64,000 bases of DNA from Agathobacter sp. Lineage in GTDB: Bacteria > Bacillota > Clostridia > Lachnospirales > Lachnospiraceae. Of this stretch, positions 8,140 through 36,420 are shown piece by piece; the stretch's first letter is position 1, and the number at the start of each line of letters is the position of its first letter. The stretch covers positions 58,008-122,007 of the forward strand of contig JAFQRZ010000023.1 in assembly GCA_017409825.1 (NCBI GenBank). The letters run 5' to 3'. Made by a program: the position numbers and the translations under genes. The notes under the pieces were generated by a model, which did no database searches, was not told the DNA's origin, and was given only the letters and a program-made list of their open reading frames with translations.

Positions 8140-8727
8140 ATGGAGAATGATTATATTATTATAATTGATGAAAGCCTATTAGTATTTATAGAACATTCCA
8201 TAAAAAAGGAGATACCAGATAATTATCAATATACGTTAAGTAGTAGAATTTCAGATAGGCTTGCAAATGATATTGAAAATTTATTAGGGCTATCGGTTAA
8301 AGGATATAAAAATAAAATTACACCAGGTCGAATTAGACACATATATAAAAGACATGGAGAAAATGGATTGGCGGATAAGAGCATGGGAAATTTACGTGAT
8401 ATAGCAAAGATTGGATATATAGTTGAAAACTATAGTAAAATAGCAAGCGGTAATGATATGAGTGGAGAATATAAAAACAAAGATGGTTCACCTTCAAAGA
8501 CTGTCGTTTTACAGGGATGTCTAGACAATGAATTTTATTATGTAGTAGAAGCAGTTCCAGATTCTGCAAGAAAAACACTGTATGTGACAACTGCTTATAT
8601 AAATAAAAATGACACAATTGCTGAAGCGGGAGATGCAATAAGCCTTAACCCAGACGTCCCAAACGGACTTCAGACAAATGTGCCTTCTAACATTATTATA
8701 CCAAGAGATAATAAAAATGCAATATAA
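8140..8727 (+). CDS. Stand-alone PBECR-type (phage nuclease/toxin-like) domain protein
   Basis: 195 residues, RBS weak but present (AGGGGG). The segment ITPGRIRHIYKRHGENG (about 67-83) and the downstream pattern of an aromatic/basic strand, GYIVENYS and a VVLQG...YYVVEAVPDS core resemble the phage-Barnase-EndoU-ColicinE5-RelE-like nuclease domains usually found at the C-terminus of phage head-morphogenesis or polymorphic-toxin proteins; the RH-x-x-x-R/K-H residues would be catalytic. Here the domain is free-standing, has no signal peptide and has no phage genes beside it. The tail is Asn/Asp/Pro-rich. No immunity gene is obvious, though the next gene is transcribed in the same direction after a 124-base gap. 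The family assignment is by eye and moderate. Confidence 0.55.
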   Translation: MENDYIIIIDESLLVFIEHSIKKEIPDNYQYTLSSRISDRLANDIENLLGLSVKGYKNKITPGRIRHIYKRHGENGLADKSMGNLRDIAKIGYIVENYSKIASGNDMSGEYKNKDGSPSKTVVLQGCLDNEFYYVVEAVPDSARKTLYVTTAYINKNDTIAEAGDAISLNPDVPNGLQTNVPSNIIIPRDNKNAI

Positions 8728-8851
8728 AAAACAAATTAAGGTAACGTTAAGGTTTTGTTAAGCTAAAACATATAGTACAAACTTTACATCTATGCTACAA
8801 TGAACATAACAAAACAGATTGCATACATTTTAATGAATGGGGGAATTTGAT

Positions 8852-9688
8852 ATGACAATAAATGATGCAAAAAAGGTTATGTTGGACAAAGTAAATCTTG
8901 AGATAGAAGTAGCAGAACTGAGAGATGAGATAAAAGCGAAGGAGAGACAGAGAAAGAAACTTCGCTATGAGGCAGACGAAATGCAGATGCAGTATGATGA
9001 CTTAGCGAATTCTAAAATGCGACAGTTTTTCTTAGGCCTTACGGGAAAGAAAGAAGTACGTTTACAGGAAGCAGGAAATGAAGTTCGTAGAGTAAAAGGG
9101 GAACTGGCCTCCGTAGAATTTGAGTTAGAATCGTTGAATGCCAGAGTAGAAGAAATCGAACAGACGGGTACAGAAATTGAAAGCGTATGCAATGAGTGTC
9201 TAAAGATGATTGAGGAGATGGATGGTGCAGACGTAAAAAGGAAATTACTTTCTATTCGCGTAGTGCCAGGAACAAGAGCAGAGATTACGGATTGTCTGGC
9301 GGAAGTGAAACCACTTTTCACGACGGCTTATGATATCTATGAGACTCGAACAGGCAGGCCTGCGACTCCTGGTACATATATAAATAAAGATTCCGAAATG
9401 AGAAAGCTTAGCAGGGAGATTGAAAAGGGTGTCAATCATATCATTGAGTTGTTAAATACATATAATCTGTATGCACCAGAGCAAATTAAAATTGATTTTC
9501 ATGCAAAATGGATGGAGAAAGAAAATTATTGGGAAGAGCAACAGATGGCGTATGATACAATGGAAAGAATCAAGAAGGTAGAAGATTGGTTTTATCGATT
9601 AGATAACTGCTGGAAAGTAGGGCAGAAACAGCAGAAGGAAGCGATGCAGGGACTTCAGGAAGAGGTATTGGCGTATTTGGATGATTAA
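8852..9688 (+). CDS. Coiled-coil cytoplasmic protein, first gene of an unknown operon
   Basis: 278 residues from ATG 8852, chosen because GGGGGAA sits six bases before it; an ATG five codons upstream would include that site in the coding region. Residues about 5-125 are strongly coiled-coil (heptads of Leu/Val with Glu/Lys/Arg). A second helical part (about 130-278) has Trp-rich stretches (EKENYWEEQ, EDWFYRLDNCW). There is no membrane segment. It is followed at once by a membrane protein, a GRAM-like protein, an acidic single-pass protein and a membrane-tethered XRE protein. I do not recognise a family. Confidence 0.6.
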   Translation: MTINDAKKVMLDKVNLEIEVAELRDEIKAKERQRKKLRYEADEMQMQYDDLANSKMRQFFLGLTGKKEVRLQEAGNEVRRVKGELASVEFELESLNARVEEIEQTGTEIESVCNECLKMIEEMDGADVKRKLLSIRVVPGTRAEITDCLAEVKPLFTTAYDIYETRTGRPATPGTYINKDSEMRKLSREIEKGVNHIIELLNTYNLYAPEQIKIDFHAKWMEKENYWEEQQMAYDTMERIKKVEDWFYRLDNCWKVGQKQQKEAMQGLQEEVLAYLDD

Positions 9689-9701
9689 GGAGGTGTTTGG
9701 T

Positions 9702-10304
9702 ATGACAAATAACAAAGCATTATTCATGAAATGGGCACAGATTTTGTTTTATGTACAGTGTGCTGCGGTGGTTGTATCACTGATTGCAAGTTTACCATTT
9801 GTTGGCTCATGGTTTACTTGGATAATTCGAATCATTTCTATCGCAACGGTTTTTGTGATATACAAATTATCGCCTGTAAATCCACGATATCGTAAGGCGG
9901 CTATATTCATGGGAATATCGACCATTTTGCTAGTCATTTTTGTAAAAGAACTTTGGATACTTGTAATCGTTGGGGCGATTTGTTCGATCATTGGAATGTA
10001 TCAGGAGTATGTTGGACATTCGGAAGTGATGGCAGGTATTGATGATAAATTGGCAAAGAACTGGCATAGCCTGTTCCATTGGGATTTCTGGGGTGGTTTA
10101 GCGGTATCTTTTATCGGTGCAATTTGCCTCACCATTTTGACACTGACAATTTCTTCGGAGGTTAGTGTTGATGTTGCAGTAGTAATTGCAGATGGTTACC
10201 AGACAATTTTGAACATTGTATATCTCGTGTTTTTAAAACGAATGCTTACAGTATATGCGAATTATGAACCACAGAAAGAGGAAGAGATTACAAATGAAGG
10301 ATAA
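9702..10304 (+). CDS. Integral membrane protein of unknown function
   Basis: 200 residues from ATG 9702, which follows AAGGAGGTG at ideal spacing. About six transmembrane helices (roughly 12-32, 36-53, 62-80, 84-102, 130-150, 160-185) and a cytoplasmic acidic tail. It starts 14 bases after the previous stop, and its end overlaps the next start by 11 bases, so the genes are translationally coupled. No family recognised. Confidence 0.7.
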   Translation: MTNNKALFMKWAQILFYVQCAAVVVSLIASLPFVGSWFTWIIRIISIATVFVIYKLSPVNPRYRKAAIFMGISTILLVIFVKELWILVIVGAICSIIGMYQEYVGHSEVMAGIDDKLAKNWHSLFHWDFWGGLAVSFIGAICLTILTLTISSEVSVDVAVVIADGYQTILNIVYLVFLKRMLTVYANYEPQKEEEITNEG

Positions 10305-10650
10305 AGCAGAACAGGAAAGAAAAGAACTAAATAAAGAACTGATAAAAAGAACTTTTGTGAATCAGATGCAGAATACCTTTACGGTTAGTTTGTGTAAAAA
10401 TGGAATCTTAGGCGGATATATTGTCGTTGGTGACGTGTCAATGATATATAAGACTGGAAAAGTGACAATCCCAGAAAAATATAGAAACTTGGTGATGGAA
10501 TATGAGGATATTTTCTCGGTGACAGAAGGCAAAATGTTGTTTTTACCGACCGTTTCTGTTAAGATGAAAAACGATGAAGAATACAAGTTTATTGTATTTG
10601 CAAGAAAACGATTTTTAGAAGCGTTGAATCATAAACGCAATAAAAAGTAA
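10294..10650 (+). CDS. Small GRAM/PH-like domain protein
   Basis: 118 residues from ATG 10294 (GAGGAAG upstream), overlapping the preceding gene. After a charged helix, residues about 25-105 show alternating beta strands (TVSLCKNGILGGYIVVGDV, VTIPEKYRNL, FSVTEGKMLFLPTVSVKMKN, EYKFIVFARKRFLEALN) and a final helix, the fold pattern of bacterial GRAM/PH-like domains. Such domains often attach to membranes or lipids. Inference only; placed between two membrane proteins. Confidence 0.5.
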   Translation: MKDKAEQERKELNKELIKRTFVNQMQNTFTVSLCKNGILGGYIVVGDVSMIYKTGKVTIPEKYRNLVMEYEDIFSVTEGKMLFLPTVSVKMKNDEEYKFIVFARKRFLEALNHKRNKK

Positions 10651-10663
10651 AGAGGGAAAAAGA

Positions 10664-11569
10664 ATGGCACAATACGATGATTTTGGAAGACCGATTTATG
10701 AAACGGCGGAAGAATATAATAAAGCCCATAAGGGTGGTGTATGTCCACGTACGTATGACAGCCCAGAGGGAGATAACTATCAGCACAATACGATGAAGAA
10801 GACGAAACGTTATCAAAGTGCTGCACAGCGTTATGCAGAGCGAAATGGCTCGAAAAAAGCGAAGAAAATGGTGCTGGGATTAGCTGTATTTTTTATTGTG
10901 CTAAATGTGGTCGTAATTTTCTCGATGTTTAAAATGGTAGGCGGTGTCTATGATGATTATCAGGATTACGACGAAAGCTGGGTGGATCCTGATGGTGAAG
11001 AACATGGTTATGGTCCATACGTTGGTGATGACACAATTCCATTGCCAGAAGGATTTGAAACCTTTTCTTATAATGGTCAGACCTATACGTTACCAACAAG
11101 TTATCAAGAGATTTTACAGATGGGATTTACGTTAGAAGAGGATTATGACATAAATGATTTGTTTCCTACGGAATATGAGGAATTGATTGCTTTTGAAGAG
11201 GATGAGGATGGATTTACGTCTGCAATGGTACGCATCAATAACTATACAGGGGATGAGATTCCATTAGGGAAATGTATGGTGGATTATTTCTACATAGAAA
11301 ATCCTGCGGCATTTGATAAAGCTGAACAAGTTCCAGCTTTTGTGTTTGGCGATGGGCTTACCTTTGAAAGTAGCTACGAGGAATTAGAAGCTTACTTTGG
11401 TACGCCATATTATCATTACGAAGACCATTCAGAAGAGGGCTACTACTATGATAGCTATGACTGGGCGTATTATGGAGAGGACGAAATGCATTTTGTAAGC
11501 ATTACTTTTTGGAATGGTGTAATTGATAGTGTAGGCATAGAGAAAAGGGCTTATGAGGAGAAATATTAG
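10664..11569 (+). CDS. Single-pass membrane protein with acidic, Tyr/Asp-rich external domain
   Basis: 301 residues. A cytoplasmic N-terminal region (about 1-67, ending in basic SKKAKKM) is followed by one transmembrane helix (about 68-90) and an extracellular domain (about 95-301) rich in Asp, Glu and Tyr (for example YEDHSEEGYYYDSYDW near 245-260). The N-terminus QYDDFGRPIYETAEEYN has no signal peptide, so topology is inside-out type II. RBS AGAGGGAAAAAG. Same operon as the genes before it. I do not recognise a family. Confidence 0.6.
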   Translation: MAQYDDFGRPIYETAEEYNKAHKGGVCPRTYDSPEGDNYQHNTMKKTKRYQSAAQRYAERNGSKKAKKMVLGLAVFFIVLNVVVIFSMFKMVGGVYDDYQDYDESWVDPDGEEHGYGPYVGDDTIPLPEGFETFSYNGQTYTLPTSYQEILQMGFTLEEDYDINDLFPTEYEELIAFEEDEDGFTSAMVRINNYTGDEIPLGKCMVDYFYIENPAAFDKAEQVPAFVFGDGLTFESSYEELEAYFGTPYYHYEDHSEEGYYYDSYDWAYYGEDEMHFVSITFWNGVIDSVGIEKRAYEEKY

Positions 11570-11657
11570 TTGCAACTGAAAGTTGCGTGATAGTTGGTAG
11601 AAGCAACCAAGCTTTTTTGATAGATTTTAGATATCAAAAAAACAAGGAGGAAAATAT

Positions 11658-12008
11658 ATGGCAGGAAATGTTATAGTATTTTTGGTGTTTGGTGTGTTTG
11701 CGATTGTCTGGGCTGGTTTTGTGATTTGGTTGCTTTCATTAATCATTCGTGCATTGTTGAAGTATCTTAAAACAGAGGATGTTCGAAAAGAAAAAGCGGT
11801 GGTAACGAAATCATTAGGTGAAAGATTAAAGAATTATCGAACTTCATGTATGATGACGCAGGAATTTGTGGCAGAGCAGATTGGTGTGAGTCGACAGGCA
11901 GTTTCAAAATGGGAGAATGGAACTTCCGACCCAAGCACATCGAATTTGTTTGCGTTAGCAAAGTTGTTTGGTATTTCTGTAGAAGAATTACTGCGAGATG
12001 TTGGGTGA
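11658..12008 (+). CDS. Membrane-tethered XRE-family regulator
   Basis: 116 residues: one transmembrane helix at about 5-35, a charged linker, and a complete XRE helix-turn-helix at about 52-112 (LGERLKNYRTSCMMTQEFV, then SRQAVSKWENGTSDPSTSN). RBS AAGGAGGAAAA. The N-terminal anchor fused to a DNA-binding domain is uncommon; the usual order is HTH first. It comes 88 bases after the acidic membrane protein with only a weak intervening hairpin, so it may belong to that operon and report on its membrane partners. A plain repressor held at the membrane is the simplest reading. Confidence 0.75.
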   Translation: MAGNVIVFLVFGVFAIVWAGFVIWLLSLIIRALLKYLKTEDVRKEKAVVTKSLGERLKNYRTSCMMTQEFVAEQIGVSRQAVSKWENGTSDPSTSNLFALAKLFGISVEELLRDVG

Positions 12009-12745: not shown

Positions 12746-13607
12746 GATAAAGAATCTTACAAAATCGTATGGGAAAGCCAGAGGAATTATTGATATAAAC
12801 TTAACAGTTGAAGATGGGGAATTTTTCGGATTTATTGGGCCAAATGGAGCTGGGAAATCTACCACGATTCGTACATTGCTTGGAATGATTCAAGTGACAA
12901 GTGGAGAGGCAAGGGTGTTAGGTTACGATATTCAGAAAGAAAGCACGAAGCTTTTATCAGAAATTGGATACCTGCCTTCAGAAGCGGTATTTTATTCTGG
13001 AATGAAGGTTAAAGATGTGTTGAAACTATCTGCAGATTTGCATAAAAAGGATTGTGCAGAAGAAAGAAAACGTCTATGTGAACGATTACAGTTGGATGTA
13101 AACCGAAAAGTAGATGAGCTTTCTTTTGGAAATCGAAAGAAAGTGGCTATTGTATGTGCCTTGCAGCATAATCCACGATTGTTGATTTTGGATGAACCAA
13201 CGAGTGGTTTAGATCCGCTGATGCAGAAAGAGTTCTTCGATATTTTGAGAGAACGCAATGAAAAAGGTGTGACGATTTTTCTTTCAAGTCATATTTTGTC
13301 AGAGGTGCAGACGCATTGTAAGCGTGCCGCTATTATTCGGGAAGGTCGTCTGATTGCATGTGATAGTGTGGAGGAATTGGCGAAAACGAATGCAAAGCGA
13401 GTGAGCATTGTAGGAGAGGTAAGTATCGATGCGTTGGAAGGGGTGCGTGATAAAAAGACAGAACAGGATAGCATCAGCTTCTTATATAGTGGAGATGTTA
13501 ATACACTGATTCAACACATCTCTAAAGCGGATATAAAAGACCTTTCTATTACCGAACCGGATTTGGAAGAAATATTTATGCATTACTATGAAGCGGAGGA
13601 CAAATAG
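12732..13607 (+). CDS. ABC transporter ATP-binding protein
   Basis: 291 residues from ATG 12732 (AAGGGGAAT upstream), overlapping the TetR gene by 14 bases. Walker A GPNGAGKST (about 36-44), signature LSFGNRKK (about 131-138, Gly of LSGG changed to Phe-Gly) and Walker B LLILDEPTSGLD. The length and the extra C-terminal part match the ABC-2 exporter ATPases of the CcmA/BcrA type. It pairs with the permease starting one base after its stop. Probably drug, peptide or lipid export. Confidence 0.92.
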   Translation: MAAIKIKNLTKSYGKARGIIDINLTVEDGEFFGFIGPNGAGKSTTIRTLLGMIQVTSGEARVLGYDIQKESTKLLSEIGYLPSEAVFYSGMKVKDVLKLSADLHKKDCAEERKRLCERLQLDVNRKVDELSFGNRKKVAIVCALQHNPRLLILDEPTSGLDPLMQKEFFDILRERNEKGVTIFLSSHILSEVQTHCKRAAIIREGRLIACDSVEELAKTNAKRVSIVGEVSIDALEGVRDKKTEQDSISFLYSGDVNTLIQHISKADIKDLSITEPDLEEIFMHYYEAEDK

Positions 13608-32294: not shown

Positions 32295-32504
32295 TTAGTT
32301 TTTTGAGTTTTTCAAACCAAGCAGGTAGTCCGCAGATACCTGATATAGTTCACATAGTTTAATAAGATGATGGATGGGCATTTCATTGGCTCCACGTTCA
32401 TATCTGGCATACATAGTTTGCGATGTGCCAAGGTAATAAGCTACATATTCTTGTGTATAATCAGAGTCTTCTCGTAAGTTTTTCATTCTTTCTATATACT
32501 TCAT
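32295..32504 (-). CDS. Small XRE-family repressor of the dynamin-like cassette
   Basis: 69 residues, almost only a helix-turn-helix (RMKNLREDSDYTQEYVAYYL, TSQTMYARYERGANEMPIHH), RBS AAAGGTGG. Divergent from the GTPase gene; the intergenic region holds a perfect 18-base inverted repeat overlapping both promoters. Inference: autoregulated repressor of the three-gene operon. Confidence 0.85.
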   Translation of the reverse strand: MKYIERMKNLREDSDYTQEYVAYYLGTSQTMYARYERGANEMPIHHLIKLCELYQVSADYLLGLKNSKN

Positions 32505-32540
32505 ACAAATACCACCTTTTCTTGATAGTATTAGTATAAA

Positions 32541-32587
32541 TAGTACAGATATTTACTATTGAATTTAGTAAATATCTGTACTAAAAT
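32541..32587 (+). promoter_or_regulatory. Divergent operator-promoter with perfect 18-bp inverted repeat
   Basis: Arm TAGTACAGATATTTACTA (32541-32558), 7-base centre, and its exact reverse complement at 32566-32583. The plus-strand promoter uses the centre as -35 (TTGAAT, 32559-32564), the right arm as the 17-base spacer, and TAAAAT (32582-32587) as -10. The left side offers TTTATA and TATACT -10 candidates on the minus strand. A repressor dimer here would shut both directions. Confidence 0.75.
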
Positions 32588-32624
32588 ATATGATATATGT
32601 TTTGTTGTATAAAAGAGGTTGGTT

Positions 32625-34529
32625 ATGGAATATGTAAAGTTACCATTTCAAATGGAAGAAAAAAAGGTTTTAAATGACTTGTTGGAAAATCTTAATATTG
32701 TATTGAAGGATAGTGATGCAGTTGCAGAAAAAGATATTGTAAAACAATTTTTGCGAGAGATATCTGATGTGACTACGATTACGGTATTGGGAAGTAAAGG
32801 TGTAGGAAAAACATGTCTTTTAACGTCTATTTTTCATGAAAGTTTAGGTTCAAATCTACCTACACAAGAAATATGCGAATATCGTTATGGGGCAAAAGAG
32901 AATGTATTTCCATTGGATACAAAGATTACACGATATTTTAAAACATTAGAATCTTTACAAGGTATCGCTGTTGTAGATATGCCAGGATGTAATGCTTGGA
33001 AGAAACTGGAAATAAGTAAAAATGCGATAGGTTATTTAAATCAGAGCGAGCTAATTATTGTTGTTTTTTCTGCAGATTCAGTAAATGTATATGATGTTTG
33101 GGATATTTTAGAGCAGATAGATAATAAAAAGATTGTATTTGTATTGAATAAGACAGATTGTGTTTCAGAAAAACTCTTAAATGAGGCAGAATTAAGACTT
33201 CGACAATATATGTTAGAGGCTGGCATTCAAGCACCGATTTTTAAGGTTTCAGCTATAAATGCAAAGATAGGAAAGAGAGAAGAATGTTGTATTGGAGAAT
33301 TATGTCATTATATTAATACAAATATTATTGGTAAAAATCCAATATTGTCGAAGCAAAGAGAAAATATGCTTCTTATAAAAAATATGATAAAAGAAATAGA
33401 ATCATCATTTCAACAACGCCAAAGACAGTTGGAAATTGACAAGATGGTTATAGCAAATATTAACCAGGCAATGGATGGTTTCTATGACAAAAGTAAACAA
33501 AAAATAGAATATTTAAAAAAAGAAATCGAGAATGAAATAGATAAAGAAATTGATGGATATAAGGATGAAATTGTAAAACGATTAAATCCAACGCAGATTA
33601 AAGAGCGATTTCCAAACGGAATGGATGATTTTAAAGAATATCTTGAATTGGTAAACGTAAATTATCAAAAAAGAATGACATTGGAGATTGAAAAAAGGAC
33701 ACAAAGTTGCATTAGAACATATCTGTCAGAGCTTCAAGATGTATATACAGAGGCAATTGGTTTCTTTGAGATGAGAGAGTCATTATTGTCATTGGAAGAC
33801 AAATTCTATGGTTCCTTAGCTGAATCAAAACGATGTATGGTTTCGGCGGCTTCTTATCAGTTGGATGAAAGTAAAAGATATTATTGTTCATTGACAAATG
33901 CTTCGGAAGAATTGTTTCAAAAAATTTGGAGTGAACGAGTACGTAATGATAGGAGAATATCATTTTCAAGTGGAACAGGAGTTGTTATAGGTGGAACTGG
34001 CGTGGGGACAGGAGGAGCCGTATTATTTACTGCGGCGGAAAAGAGTTTGACTAGTATATTAGCAAATACAATTGGGGTATCAGCGGGAACGGCTGGTGCT
34101 ACAGCAGGAAGCGTTGGTGCAACAACCGGAACGGCGGTCGGTGGTGCAGTTGCAGGAATTAGTTTAGCTACAGCCATAGGTTTCATTATAGGAGCTGGCA
34201 TTGGTGGCGTTGTATTATATAATTTGTTTAAAAAAATAACAACTGCAATCAGTATAGAAGAGATGCAAAAGGTGGTCGATGAGTATATAGAAGAATTTTA
34301 TGCAGAAGTCGATTTAACAAAGCAGGAAATGAAAGAGCAGATTTTATTTGCAGTAGATGAAATTTTTAATCAAGAATTGAATAGTGCAGACAAAACGTTT
34401 ATAGATTTTCGTATGTCGGTGAACATCGATAGCAAAAATATTCCATTGTTAGAAGATCGAGTAGAAAAGCTACATGGTTTAATGCATCAAATAGAACGAA
34501 TAGAGAAAGAACAGGAAATGATATGTTAG
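32625..34529 (+). CDS. Dynamin-like large GTPase
   Basis: 634 residues from ATG 32625 (AAGAGG upstream; a TTG two codons earlier is less likely). GTPase motifs: G1 GSKGVGKT (about 56-63), G3 DMPG (118-121), G4 NKTD (175-178), G5-like SAIN (about 203). Then a long helical stalk (about 250-440) and a glycine/alanine-rich hydrophobic stretch (about 448-535) like the membrane paddle of bacterial dynamins, and a final helical bundle. Such proteins bind, tubulate or fuse membranes on GTP hydrolysis. Coupled to two downstream genes. Codons are more A+T-rich (AAA, ATA, GAA) than in flanking division genes, suggesting transfer. Antiphage or membrane-repair roles are known for relatives; here it is inference. 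Confidence 0.8.
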   Translation: MEYVKLPFQMEEKKVLNDLLENLNIVLKDSDAVAEKDIVKQFLREISDVTTITVLGSKGVGKTCLLTSIFHESLGSNLPTQEICEYRYGAKENVFPLDTKITRYFKTLESLQGIAVVDMPGCNAWKKLEISKNAIGYLNQSELIIVVFSADSVNVYDVWDILEQIDNKKIVFVLNKTDCVSEKLLNEAELRLRQYMLEAGIQAPIFKVSAINAKIGKREECCIGELCHYINTNIIGKNPILSKQRENMLLIKNMIKEIESSFQQRQRQLEIDKMVIANINQAMDGFYDKSKQKIEYLKKEIENEIDKEIDGYKDEIVKRLNPTQIKERFPNGMDDFKEYLELVNVNYQKRMTLEIEKRTQSCIRTYLSELQDVYTEAIGFFEMRESLLSLEDKFYGSLAESKRCMVSAASYQLDESKRYYCSLTNASEELFQKIWSERVRNDRRISFSSGTGVVIGGTGVGTGGAVLFTAAEKSLTSILANTIGVSAGTAGATAGSVGATTGTAVGGAVAGISLATAIGFIIGAGIGGVVLYNLFKKITTAISIEEMQKVVDEYIEEFYAEVDLTKQEMKEQILFAVDEIFNQELNSADKTFIDFRMSVNIDSKNIPLLEDRVEKLHGLMHQIERIEKEQEMIC

Positions 34530-35863
34530 AACAGAGTATGCAAGATAAAATATATCAATTATTGGTACAAGTCGAGAGTGTTGCAGTAGAACTAAAGTTA
34601 AAACTTCGCTTATTAGATGCAATACGTGATATCAAAAATAAATTGAAAACTGTATTGTCAAAAGCTGAGCTTAGGCAGATTATTGTTGAAATTGATGAAT
34701 TGATTTTTCAACTAAAAAAACAAATAGAACCGGTACAAAAAGAAATTGTAGTGAATGATTATGCAAAAATCTCTGAGATAGATATAAAAAATAGAATCAT
34801 AAATATTCTAAGTGAGGCAAACAGAGTAAGTGCTACACTTGCAGAAGAAAATATGCAAGGATATGAAACTTATTTGATAGAAACTGAAAATGCTATGCAG
34901 GATTTTACCAAAGTCGAAGCAAATTATAAAACAATTTTAAGTCCTCAACGATTGCAAGATAAGTTTGGATATATAGGAAAATGTCATAATTCTCAAATAA
35001 ATGTTATGTTAAATAGATGTATAGATGAAATTGCGGAGAATTACGATCATGCAATAAAACAAATTGGCACTATGTTTTCTGGAATAAAAGATGCAAGAGT
35101 GGTTTTTGGTCAAAAAGAATTATATCAACAATGGACAGAAAGATATGATACGATAAAGGGGAATTTGAAAGAAGAGACAGAAGCCATTGATAAAGGCGGG
35201 AATGAGGTTGTCGATTTTTATAATGAACATGAAAAGAGTATCAAAAAAATAGTTAAAAAAAACCAAAAGAAGTATTTTAGAAAAAAGTGCATACCATTAT
35301 ATGCATTTTTGCTCGCAGTAGTTGTGTTTTTTTCTGCAAATATGATATCTATCATTTCGGAAGAACAGAAAAATACGGTTGAATCAGAAACTACATCAAC
35401 AGAACAAGAAGATGTAATGACAGATAGTATTGGATCTTTGATAAATACAATCGTTGAGAACAAGGATGTATTGCAAGATATAACAAATCAAGTAAATGAT
35501 AAGAAAGAGCCGGCTGGAAAATCGGGTCTTTGGATAAGTCTTTTAAGTATTTTTGTTTGTGCAGCACTTTGGTATTGGTGGATTTGTAGACAAAACAAAG
35601 AGTGCAAAGAAAAGATATGTGAAGAGACAGGTAGTTATTTAAGTCTGCAATTAGAGACGTTTAGAAAAGATCAACGATTACATAGGAAAACAGTACAAAG
35701 TTATAATGAATCTGTGAAAAAGGTTATTGCAGCATATGAAGAAATATGTTCAAGAATATTTGCTTTTGTTTTATATGATGAGAGAGAAGATGAGAATAGT
35801 TCTGTGGCTAGACTGATTTCCTTATGTAATGAATGGGAAAATATAAAGAGAGGTAATGTGTAA
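34523..35863 (+). CDS. Membrane-anchored coiled-coil partner of the dynamin-like GTPase
   Basis: 446 residues; ATG overlaps the GTPase gene by seven bases. The N-terminal 245 residues are helical and rich in Leu, Lys, Glu (coiled-coil). Two transmembrane helices (about 257-278 and 333-355) enclose an external loop of about 55 residues rich in Glu, Thr and Asp. The last 90 residues are helical and cytoplasmic. Topology: both ends inside. No known family recognised. Translational coupling implies a fixed ratio with the GTPase, so it could be its membrane receptor. Confidence 0.7.
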   Translation: MLEQSMQDKIYQLLVQVESVAVELKLKLRLLDAIRDIKNKLKTVLSKAELRQIIVEIDELIFQLKKQIEPVQKEIVVNDYAKISEIDIKNRIINILSEANRVSATLAEENMQGYETYLIETENAMQDFTKVEANYKTILSPQRLQDKFGYIGKCHNSQINVMLNRCIDEIAENYDHAIKQIGTMFSGIKDARVVFGQKELYQQWTERYDTIKGNLKEETEAIDKGGNEVVDFYNEHEKSIKKIVKKNQKKYFRKKCIPLYAFLLAVVVFFSANMISIISEEQKNTVESETTSTEQEDVMTDSIGSLINTIVENKDVLQDITNQVNDKKEPAGKSGLWISLLSIFVCAALWYWWICRQNKECKEKICEETGSYLSLQLETFRKDQRLHRKTVQSYNESVKKVIAAYEEICSRIFAFVLYDEREDENSSVARLISLCNEWENIKRGNV

Positions 35864-36372
35864 TGGCAATTGGATTATTTAATATTGGTAATTTTTCAAG
35901 TCTACAAAATATAAAAAAAGAATTAGAAGAAAAGAATCAGGAAAGGGCCAAAATTTTTGGTTATATTGGAATGGAAATTTATGATTTGTACAAGCAAGGA
36001 AAAGTTTCTATATCTGAATTAGATTTGTATTTCGAAAATATGGAAAATCTTGAAAAAGAAATTGAAGAGTTGGAAAAACAAAAAAATGAATTAGAAGAAC
36101 AAACGAAAAAGACACTTACCTGTAGTTGTGGTGCAACACTTTCGCCTAGGGATAGATTTTGCGGAAAATGTGGGAAGCCAGTAGAGTCAAAAAATAATAT
36201 ATGTGAGTGTGGAAGAAAGATTGAGGAAGGGTTGGCATTTTGTCCAAACTGTGGAAAAAGTATAGTTGGAGTGCCAAGAGAAATTACAAAGTATAAAGAA
36301 TGTATTTGTGGCGCAAAGGTGCCAGAGGGGCAGTTTATGTGTATGGAATGTGGCAGAGCAATTAAGAAATAG
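35863..36372 (+). CDS. Coiled-coil protein with three tandem zinc ribbons
   Basis: 169 residues; start overlaps the previous stop (TAATG). Residues about 10-85 form a helical coiled coil. Then three copies of the pattern C-x-C-G...(F/M)C-x-x-C-G: CSCGATLSPRDRFCGKCG, CECGRKIEEGLAFCPNCG and CICGAKVPEGQFMCMECG. The first pair is C-x-C rather than the usual C-x-x-C in every copy. It is probably a soluble zinc-binding adaptor for the two preceding proteins. Function unknown. Confidence 0.75.
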   Translation: MAIGLFNIGNFSSLQNIKKELEEKNQERAKIFGYIGMEIYDLYKQGKVSISELDLYFENMENLEKEIEELEKQKNELEEQTKKTLTCSCGATLSPRDRFCGKCGKPVESKNNICECGRKIEEGLAFCPNCGKSIVGVPREITKYKECICGAKVPEGQFMCMECGRAIKK

Positions 36373-36390: not shown

Positions 36391-36420
36391 AAAGACTAGT
36401 CAAAATGGCTAGTCTTTTTT
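36391..36420 (+). terminator. Terminator of the dynamin-like cassette
   Basis: AAAGACTAG / CTAGTCTTT followed by TTT; separates the cassette from spoIIGA. Confidence 0.85.

Follow-up and report, generated by a model that had tools for sequence, protein, structure and literature searches.

What is the four-gene cassette that separates ftsZ from spoIIGA in an Agathobacter sp. genome, where these two genes would normally be neighbors? The cassette lies in a 64-kb stretch of contig JAFQRZ010000023.1 (assembly GCA_017409825.1), hereafter called the window, and comprises a small XRE-type gene (X) and three overlapping genes on the opposite strand that encode a dynamin-like GTPase (G), a membrane protein (M), and a zinc-ribbon protein (Z). 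It is probably a variant of the tandem dynamin-like protein (DLP) operon of bacteria that acts as a repressible membrane-guard module. The new parts would be M, a putative membrane-anchored partner of G that lacks a GTPase domain, and Z, a candidate zinc-ribbon adaptor.

A conserved trio and its dynamin-like GTPase

All four open reading frames (ORFs) were confirmed where the preliminary description of this DNA had placed them, as were the overlaps of 7 bases between G and M (34523-34529) and 1 base between M and Z (35863). On the plus strand, G (32625..34529) encodes 634 amino acids (aa) from an ATG at 32625. This start, which lies behind AGAGG, is more likely than the TTG at 32619 that would give 636 aa. 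M (34523..35863, plus strand) encodes a 446-aa protein with two transmembrane (TM) regions, and Z (35863..36372, plus strand) completes the operon.

In 15 of 16 loci, G, M, and Z follow one another in this order on a single strand, the exception (L026) being a contig that ends within M. The possibility that the trio is not conserved was thus examined in other genomes, and because its arrangement is maintained beyond chance, the unit stands. Homology was rechecked with rows left out, since the first profiles included some loci that were later scored. The collection consists of the window, 13 loci found with a Z profile in the GTDB species collection, one locus from the same family (L061, genome G643), and one from another family of the order (L062, genome G617). 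Ten of the 13 carry the name of Lachnospiraceae or of a genus within it (Agathobacter, Roseburia, Lachnoclostridium), and the other three are a “Clostridia bacterium,” a “Clostridiales bacterium,” and Clostridium sp. MCC353 (window’s family). The Z scan relies on short peptide patterns and its recall is therefore limited; L061 and L062 were identified by separate searches. G and M each fall into two open frames in L040 (4979-7898), as does M in L026 (3237-4527), through decay or assembly error, and these split frames were used as pieces in searches.

The identification of G as a dynamin-like GTPase was borne out by an AlphaFold2 model (mean pLDDT 71.6, with the tip below pLDDT 50) and by a fold comparison in which mitofusin, EHD, and IniA stand at the top of the list and BDLP is also matched. 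The protein is composed of a GTPase domain (approximately aa 49-237), long stalk helices (239-453), a Gly-rich hydrophobic segment (approximately 453-530), and return helices (524-633). Its G1, G3, and G4 motifs (GSKGVGKT, DMPG, and NKTD) are those expected in the dynamin superfamily, and in the model the helices at 239-319, 333-453, and 524-633 flank the Gly-rich segment as a neck and trunk would. A housekeeping GTPase was considered and rejected, as the fold match takes in the stalk as well. The membrane-active role previously proposed for G is supported through this family membership and would follow from it.

Among sequence searches, a PDB profile search with G gave partial matches (TrmE at the top with 1.9e-6, BDLP 2j68 with 1.2e-4), NCBIfam provided generic names only for G, M, and Z, and a single-sequence scan of genome contigs with G was uninformative. 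The LeoBC model of PADLOC matches G over nearly its whole length (1.4e-12, aa 19-594), and G of L062 matches LeoA (1.1e-21). A Der-type GTPase encoded beside the trio in L061 (15199-16542) outscores the window DLP (LeoA 7.9e-25, LeoBC 1.4e-19) over the GTPase domains alone. Coverage, not E-value, therefore argues for the Leo likeness of G, and the PADLOC LeoA and LeoBC models need a coverage check prior to a defense call. A class-level match to G, L075, was rejected as a trio member: it is a tandem dynamin-like pair without Z (8360-11843; 562 and 596 aa) from another family of the class, and a useful outgroup. L062 and L075 form long branches in the G tree, so their placement is unsure.

The putative membrane partner M and the zinc-ribbon protein Z

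The preliminary description cast M as a receptor, which was only a guess; hydropathy and hhalign comparisons favor reading it as a GTPase-less DLP partner with a two-TM anchor. In the window protein, hydrophobic TM regions at approximately aa 252-281 and 331-349 enclose an acidic loop of approximately 50-60 aa. Exactly two TM calls were obtained for 10 of 14 M sequences, and the exceptions are the window (two overlapping calls for the first TM), L033 and L062 (one extra), and L027 (second TM only). In the 12 of 14 sequences that could be measured (all but L027 and L062), the loop is 43-80 aa long and its net charge lies between -1 and -11, whereas a charge of +3 to +9 is carried by the 20 residues ahead of the first TM. 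By the positive-inside rule, these charges place the termini of M inside and the loop outside.

No GTPase profile matches M at E-values up to 1, and no Pfam family matches it above cut-off. When M was aligned with the G stalk using hhalign, the score was 38.9 (P 3e-4, probability 39%), above the reversed controls (22.9 and 22.7) and 30 block shuffles (maximum 19.9). The probability was 68% with other alignments and 16% for full-length G without L062. M of L062 has 581 aa, of which the first 215 align to the G GTPase domain over 131 columns (score 31.8; maximum of 60 shuffles 25.6; reversed 11.9), with GDKKTNKE at the position of the G P-loop. From these alignments we infer that M may derive from a DLP that shed its GTPase domain.

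Z matches Pfam Zn_Ribbon_1 in three stretches (4.6e-10) as well as DZR (1e-9), and its 12 ribbon Cys residues are invariant across 13 sequences. Mean conservation is 54% for Z, 50% for G, and 38% for M. A zinc-ribbon membrane protein is encoded behind Z in four of the 16 loci (L023, L026, L029, and L033), and all three of these proteins that were tested match DUF2628. At the order level, the Z profile matches 30 of 392 genomes at 1e-10, two of them (the window’s own and G643) below 1e-40. Besides these two, nine of the 30 genomes (10 stretches) were inspected. One of the nine (G617) carries the trio, two stretches (L067 and L070) yielded no Z ORF in ORF calling, and L071 has a zinc-ribbon gene without G or M. 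In six stretches (L063, L064, L065, L066, L068, and L069, the first two being contigs of only 6 kb), a Z-like N terminus occurs with zinc ribbons and no G or M was seen nearby. Such Z-like proteins without G or M may represent a wider Clostridial family.

These features suggest a history that we regard as possible and put forward tentatively. One protein of a DLP pair would have lost the GTPase domain and turned into a membrane anchor with two TM regions and an acidic loop on the outside, and a triple zinc-ribbon adaptor would have been added, giving in some Lachnospiraceae an XRE-gated, horizontally spread module for membrane immunity or repair. M of L062, which seemingly has a degenerate GTPase domain, would be an evolutionary intermediate. 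Several observations weigh against the reading of the cassette as a repressible membrane-guard operon with a GTPase-less DLP partner. The homology between M and G is modest at the hhalign probabilities given above, M matches neither L075 DLP (scores 20.5 and 17.7), and the N terminus of L062 M is recognized as a GTPase neither by Pfam nor by the G profile, its alignment having a probability of just 30%. In G, the P-loop reads GRT instead of GKT/S in L027 and L061, the G2 threonine is absent from L025, L033, and L034, and the LeoBC E-value is unspecific when taken alone. Furthermore, an XRE gene was identified in just 6 of the 16 loci, and co-divergence of the genes stems in part from shared ancestry.

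The observations on M could also be read to mean that it is a coiled-coil membrane anchor or receptor unrelated to DLPs, whose likeness to the stalk is convergent helical sequence. Low identity, modest hhalign probabilities, the empty Pfam result, and the unmatched L075 proteins are all consistent with this alternative, which we consider somewhat doubtful given alignment scores above those of the controls. If M is instead a DLP without its GTPase domain, a natural pair with one GTPase-less partner, and a possible intermediate in L062, would bear on why bacterial dynamins pair. Experiments on such a pair could distinguish the half that requires catalysis from the half that serves only to anchor or nucleate. 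Lachnospiraceae would likewise gain an inducible dynamin system with a candidate operator usable in induction assays, and DLP biology would gain a zinc-ribbon adaptor.

Putative control region, possible sites of insertion, and the phage-defense reading

X (32295..32504, minus strand) points away from the operon and encodes an XRE/Cro-type repressor of 69 aa, with matches to Pfam HTH_3 (3.5e-11) and an NCBIfam RstR-type model (6.9e-13, under the NCBIfam cut-off). Its counterpart at the same site in L022 is identical at 61 of 68 positions. Between X and G, two operator-like arms (32541..32558, plus strand, and 32566..32583, minus strand) form a perfect inverted repeat, and each arm is itself TAGTA-N8-TACTA. 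These arms are the sole matches at up to 3 mismatches in the window (0.09 expected), and L022 retains the left arm with one base change and an identical right arm. The dyad is also picked up as a terminator-like stem when the minus strand is scored. X would repress the G-M-Z operon via this putative operator (32541-32583). A promoter-like site, TTGAAT-17-TAAAAT (32559..32587, plus strand), overlaps the right arm and has 9 of 12 consensus matches. Sites of this kind number 21 in the sequence and 20.9 in shuffles, which is chance level, so the case for it rests on placement, not score. The operon appears to end at an intrinsic-terminator-like stem of 12 pairs with a T tail (36391..36417, plus strand), ahead of the spoIIGA promoter region, and a comparable stem with a T tail follows Z in L022. 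Another terminator-like stem lies between ftsZ and X, and the spoIIGA upstream region lies behind the post-Z stem.

Control of one operon by a divergent XRE repressor, as first proposed, agrees with the single operon, the orientation of X, and the operator-like dyad, but X is no fixed member of the system. The six loci with a divergent XRE gene upstream (the window, L022, L025, L033, L034, and L036) encode proteins of varying size; the gene in L033 was called by eye, and L026 and L062 end too near for the upstream side to be read. Likewise, the A+T-rich codons attributed to all four genes hold for G, M, and Z (GC content at third codon positions of 0.22-0.24) but not for X, whose value of 0.32 is not distinct from those of eight flanking genes (0.28-0.41). 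In L022, an additional ORF (12996-13547) that could encode as many as 184 aa and includes hydrophobic segments lies between the XRE gene and G; the window has no counterpart of this small membrane ORF at that position.

The view that ftsZ and spoIIGA are normally neighbors was borne out within the genus. A spoIIGA match is present in 55 of 62 genomes, and the best 30 of these 55 loci were read. The two genes adjoin in 24, with 83-321 bases between their matched parts; the cassette separates them in two (the window and G312), other genes lie upstream of spoIIGA in three, and one locus ends at a contig edge. In L107 (4047-7513; genome G317), ftsZ is 3.6 kb off, and the interval is occupied by genes for a beta-glucosidase-like protein and an AraC-like regulator. 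In L106 (1444-4563; genome G346), nucleoside triphosphatase and insertion sequence-like ORFs lie upstream of spoIIGA. No ftsZ was found within 5.7 kb (L106) or 7.7 kb (L108) upstream of spoIIGA, and with ftsZ out of reach, insertion and rearrangement are indistinguishable there. Genes may tend to insert at this junction.

Other trios are found between spoIVB- and spo0A-like genes (L025), near galK-galT (L023 and L024), and upstream of gapA-pgk (L029 and L039), in addition to the ftsZ-spoIIGA site of the window and L022. Names of neighbors at other loci and junctions were assigned by inspection. These different sites suggest several insertions. Within the genus, M was matched in 7 of the 62 genomes (one weak match, with stops) and G in 9 (5 strong), and at least M-Z is present in 6. 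G was matched in 2 of 299 family genomes, 2 of 391 class genomes (the second being L075), and 1 of 299 phylum genomes, where misses are possible because only 3-8 first-look candidates were scored per genome in the large samples, the order-level one for Z included. A comparison of the window with L022 shows greater divergence for G (0.57) and M (0.43) than for ftsZ, MBL, sigE, murD, and spoVE (0.95-0.99) or for divIB and HAD (0.86). This patchiness and fast divergence would be compatible with conflict and are no proof of it.

A dedicated anti-phage system is one such reading, in which infection lifts XRE repression, G and M disrupt or reinforce the membrane so that phage release is halted or postponed, and Z senses or docks. 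Precedent is offered by Bacillus subtilis DynA, which is reported to delay lysis by phage (PMC8844932), and by the LeoA/LeoBC-type DLPs included in PADLOC. The patchy spread and the divergence of G and M also fit, although the adjoining spoIIGA is fast as well (0.64). The preliminary description had suggested membrane remodeling or phage defense, and the latter was not supported by a PADLOC scan of 118 neighboring proteins at 14 loci (ORFs below 110 aa or containing “X” were dropped; no background rate). Its one credible defense match, which counts in favor of the anti-phage reading, is an AbiLi-like ATPase in L032 (2e-30), followed by a small protein (344-2402) and located approximately 2.5 kb from the trio. 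Checks of 10 suspect proteins, along with that of the L032 ATPase, showed which proteins lie behind other matches. The mad3 model is matched by this ATPase, two ABC-type ATPases, and a RecN-like protein, and LmuB by the same RecN-like protein and a repetitive coiled-coil protein, the latter also accounting for DruC. LeoA/LeoBC is matched by the Der-type GTPase, and three helix-turn-helix models by an XRE protein. Single matches to MzaA, PDC-S03, mad2, and RmrA were not traced to members. Searches of 50,697 phage and 72,556 plasmid records found nothing that matches G, and Z is likewise unmatched in viral contigs, which leaves prophage or plasmid cargo unsupported and further argues against the anti-phage reading, which we judge unlikely. 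No tRNA was detected in the window, nor does any Rfam family reach its gathering score there, and there is thus no sign of a tRNA-site island.

Comparison with known systems

To our knowledge, B. subtilis DynA is not accompanied by a zinc-ribbon protein, mycobacterial IniA has no zinc-ribbon partner, and RdcA/RdcB (YjdA/YjcZ) includes no zinc ribbon.

No description of this gene set was found in text searches of the open-access literature. DO-GTPase/GAP1 conflict systems resemble the cassette in that a single operon combines a GTPase with zinc ribbons and TM parts, whereas their GTPase is from another TRAFAC family, zinc ribbons, if any, are fused to it, and a GAP1 component is present (PMC7159879). 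G matches Pfam DO-GTPase2 at only 13.7 bits (cut-off 27) and over aa 53-73 only. In Escherichia coli, the dynamin-like GTPase RdcA and a small partner without a known GTPase domain, encoded in one operon, act on the membrane domain of DgcE (PMC6510439). A signaling module of this type, with the DLP as a GTP switch that drives another membrane protein together with its non-GTPase partner and with Z as the link, would suit the conservation of Z, the highest of the three, and the membrane protein gene behind Z at four loci, but it is improbable because RdcA and RdcB are soluble (PMC6510439), M has two TM regions, and no fixed fourth gene provides a candidate client.

Like G, DynA is a Firmicute DLP, and surveying the membrane and delaying lysis by phage (PMC8844932) is a task that the two may share, but in DynA two DLPs are fused into one protein (PMC4159319). 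Most bacterial DLPs are paired, and Cj-DLP1 and Cj-DLP2 are reported to be inactive unless both are present (PMC6104087). The cassette shares this tandem-pair idea, and the G model aligns with Cj-DLP (5owv) over the stalk and GTPase domain with a large root-mean-square deviation. However, both Cj proteins have a GTPase domain (PMC6104087), which is found here in G only. In LeoA/LeoB/LeoC of enterotoxigenic E. coli, a tandem DLP has its partner split across two genes (PMC4159319). The cassette differs from LeoABC in that M has two TM regions and no detectable GTPase domain, no second GTPase-bearing DLP is divided into LeoC- and LeoB-like genes, and a triple zinc-ribbon third gene and XRE control are present. 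G matches LeoBC, and through L062 also LeoA, over nearly full length, and in both systems a DLP gene lies beside its partner gene in a single operon (PMC4159319).
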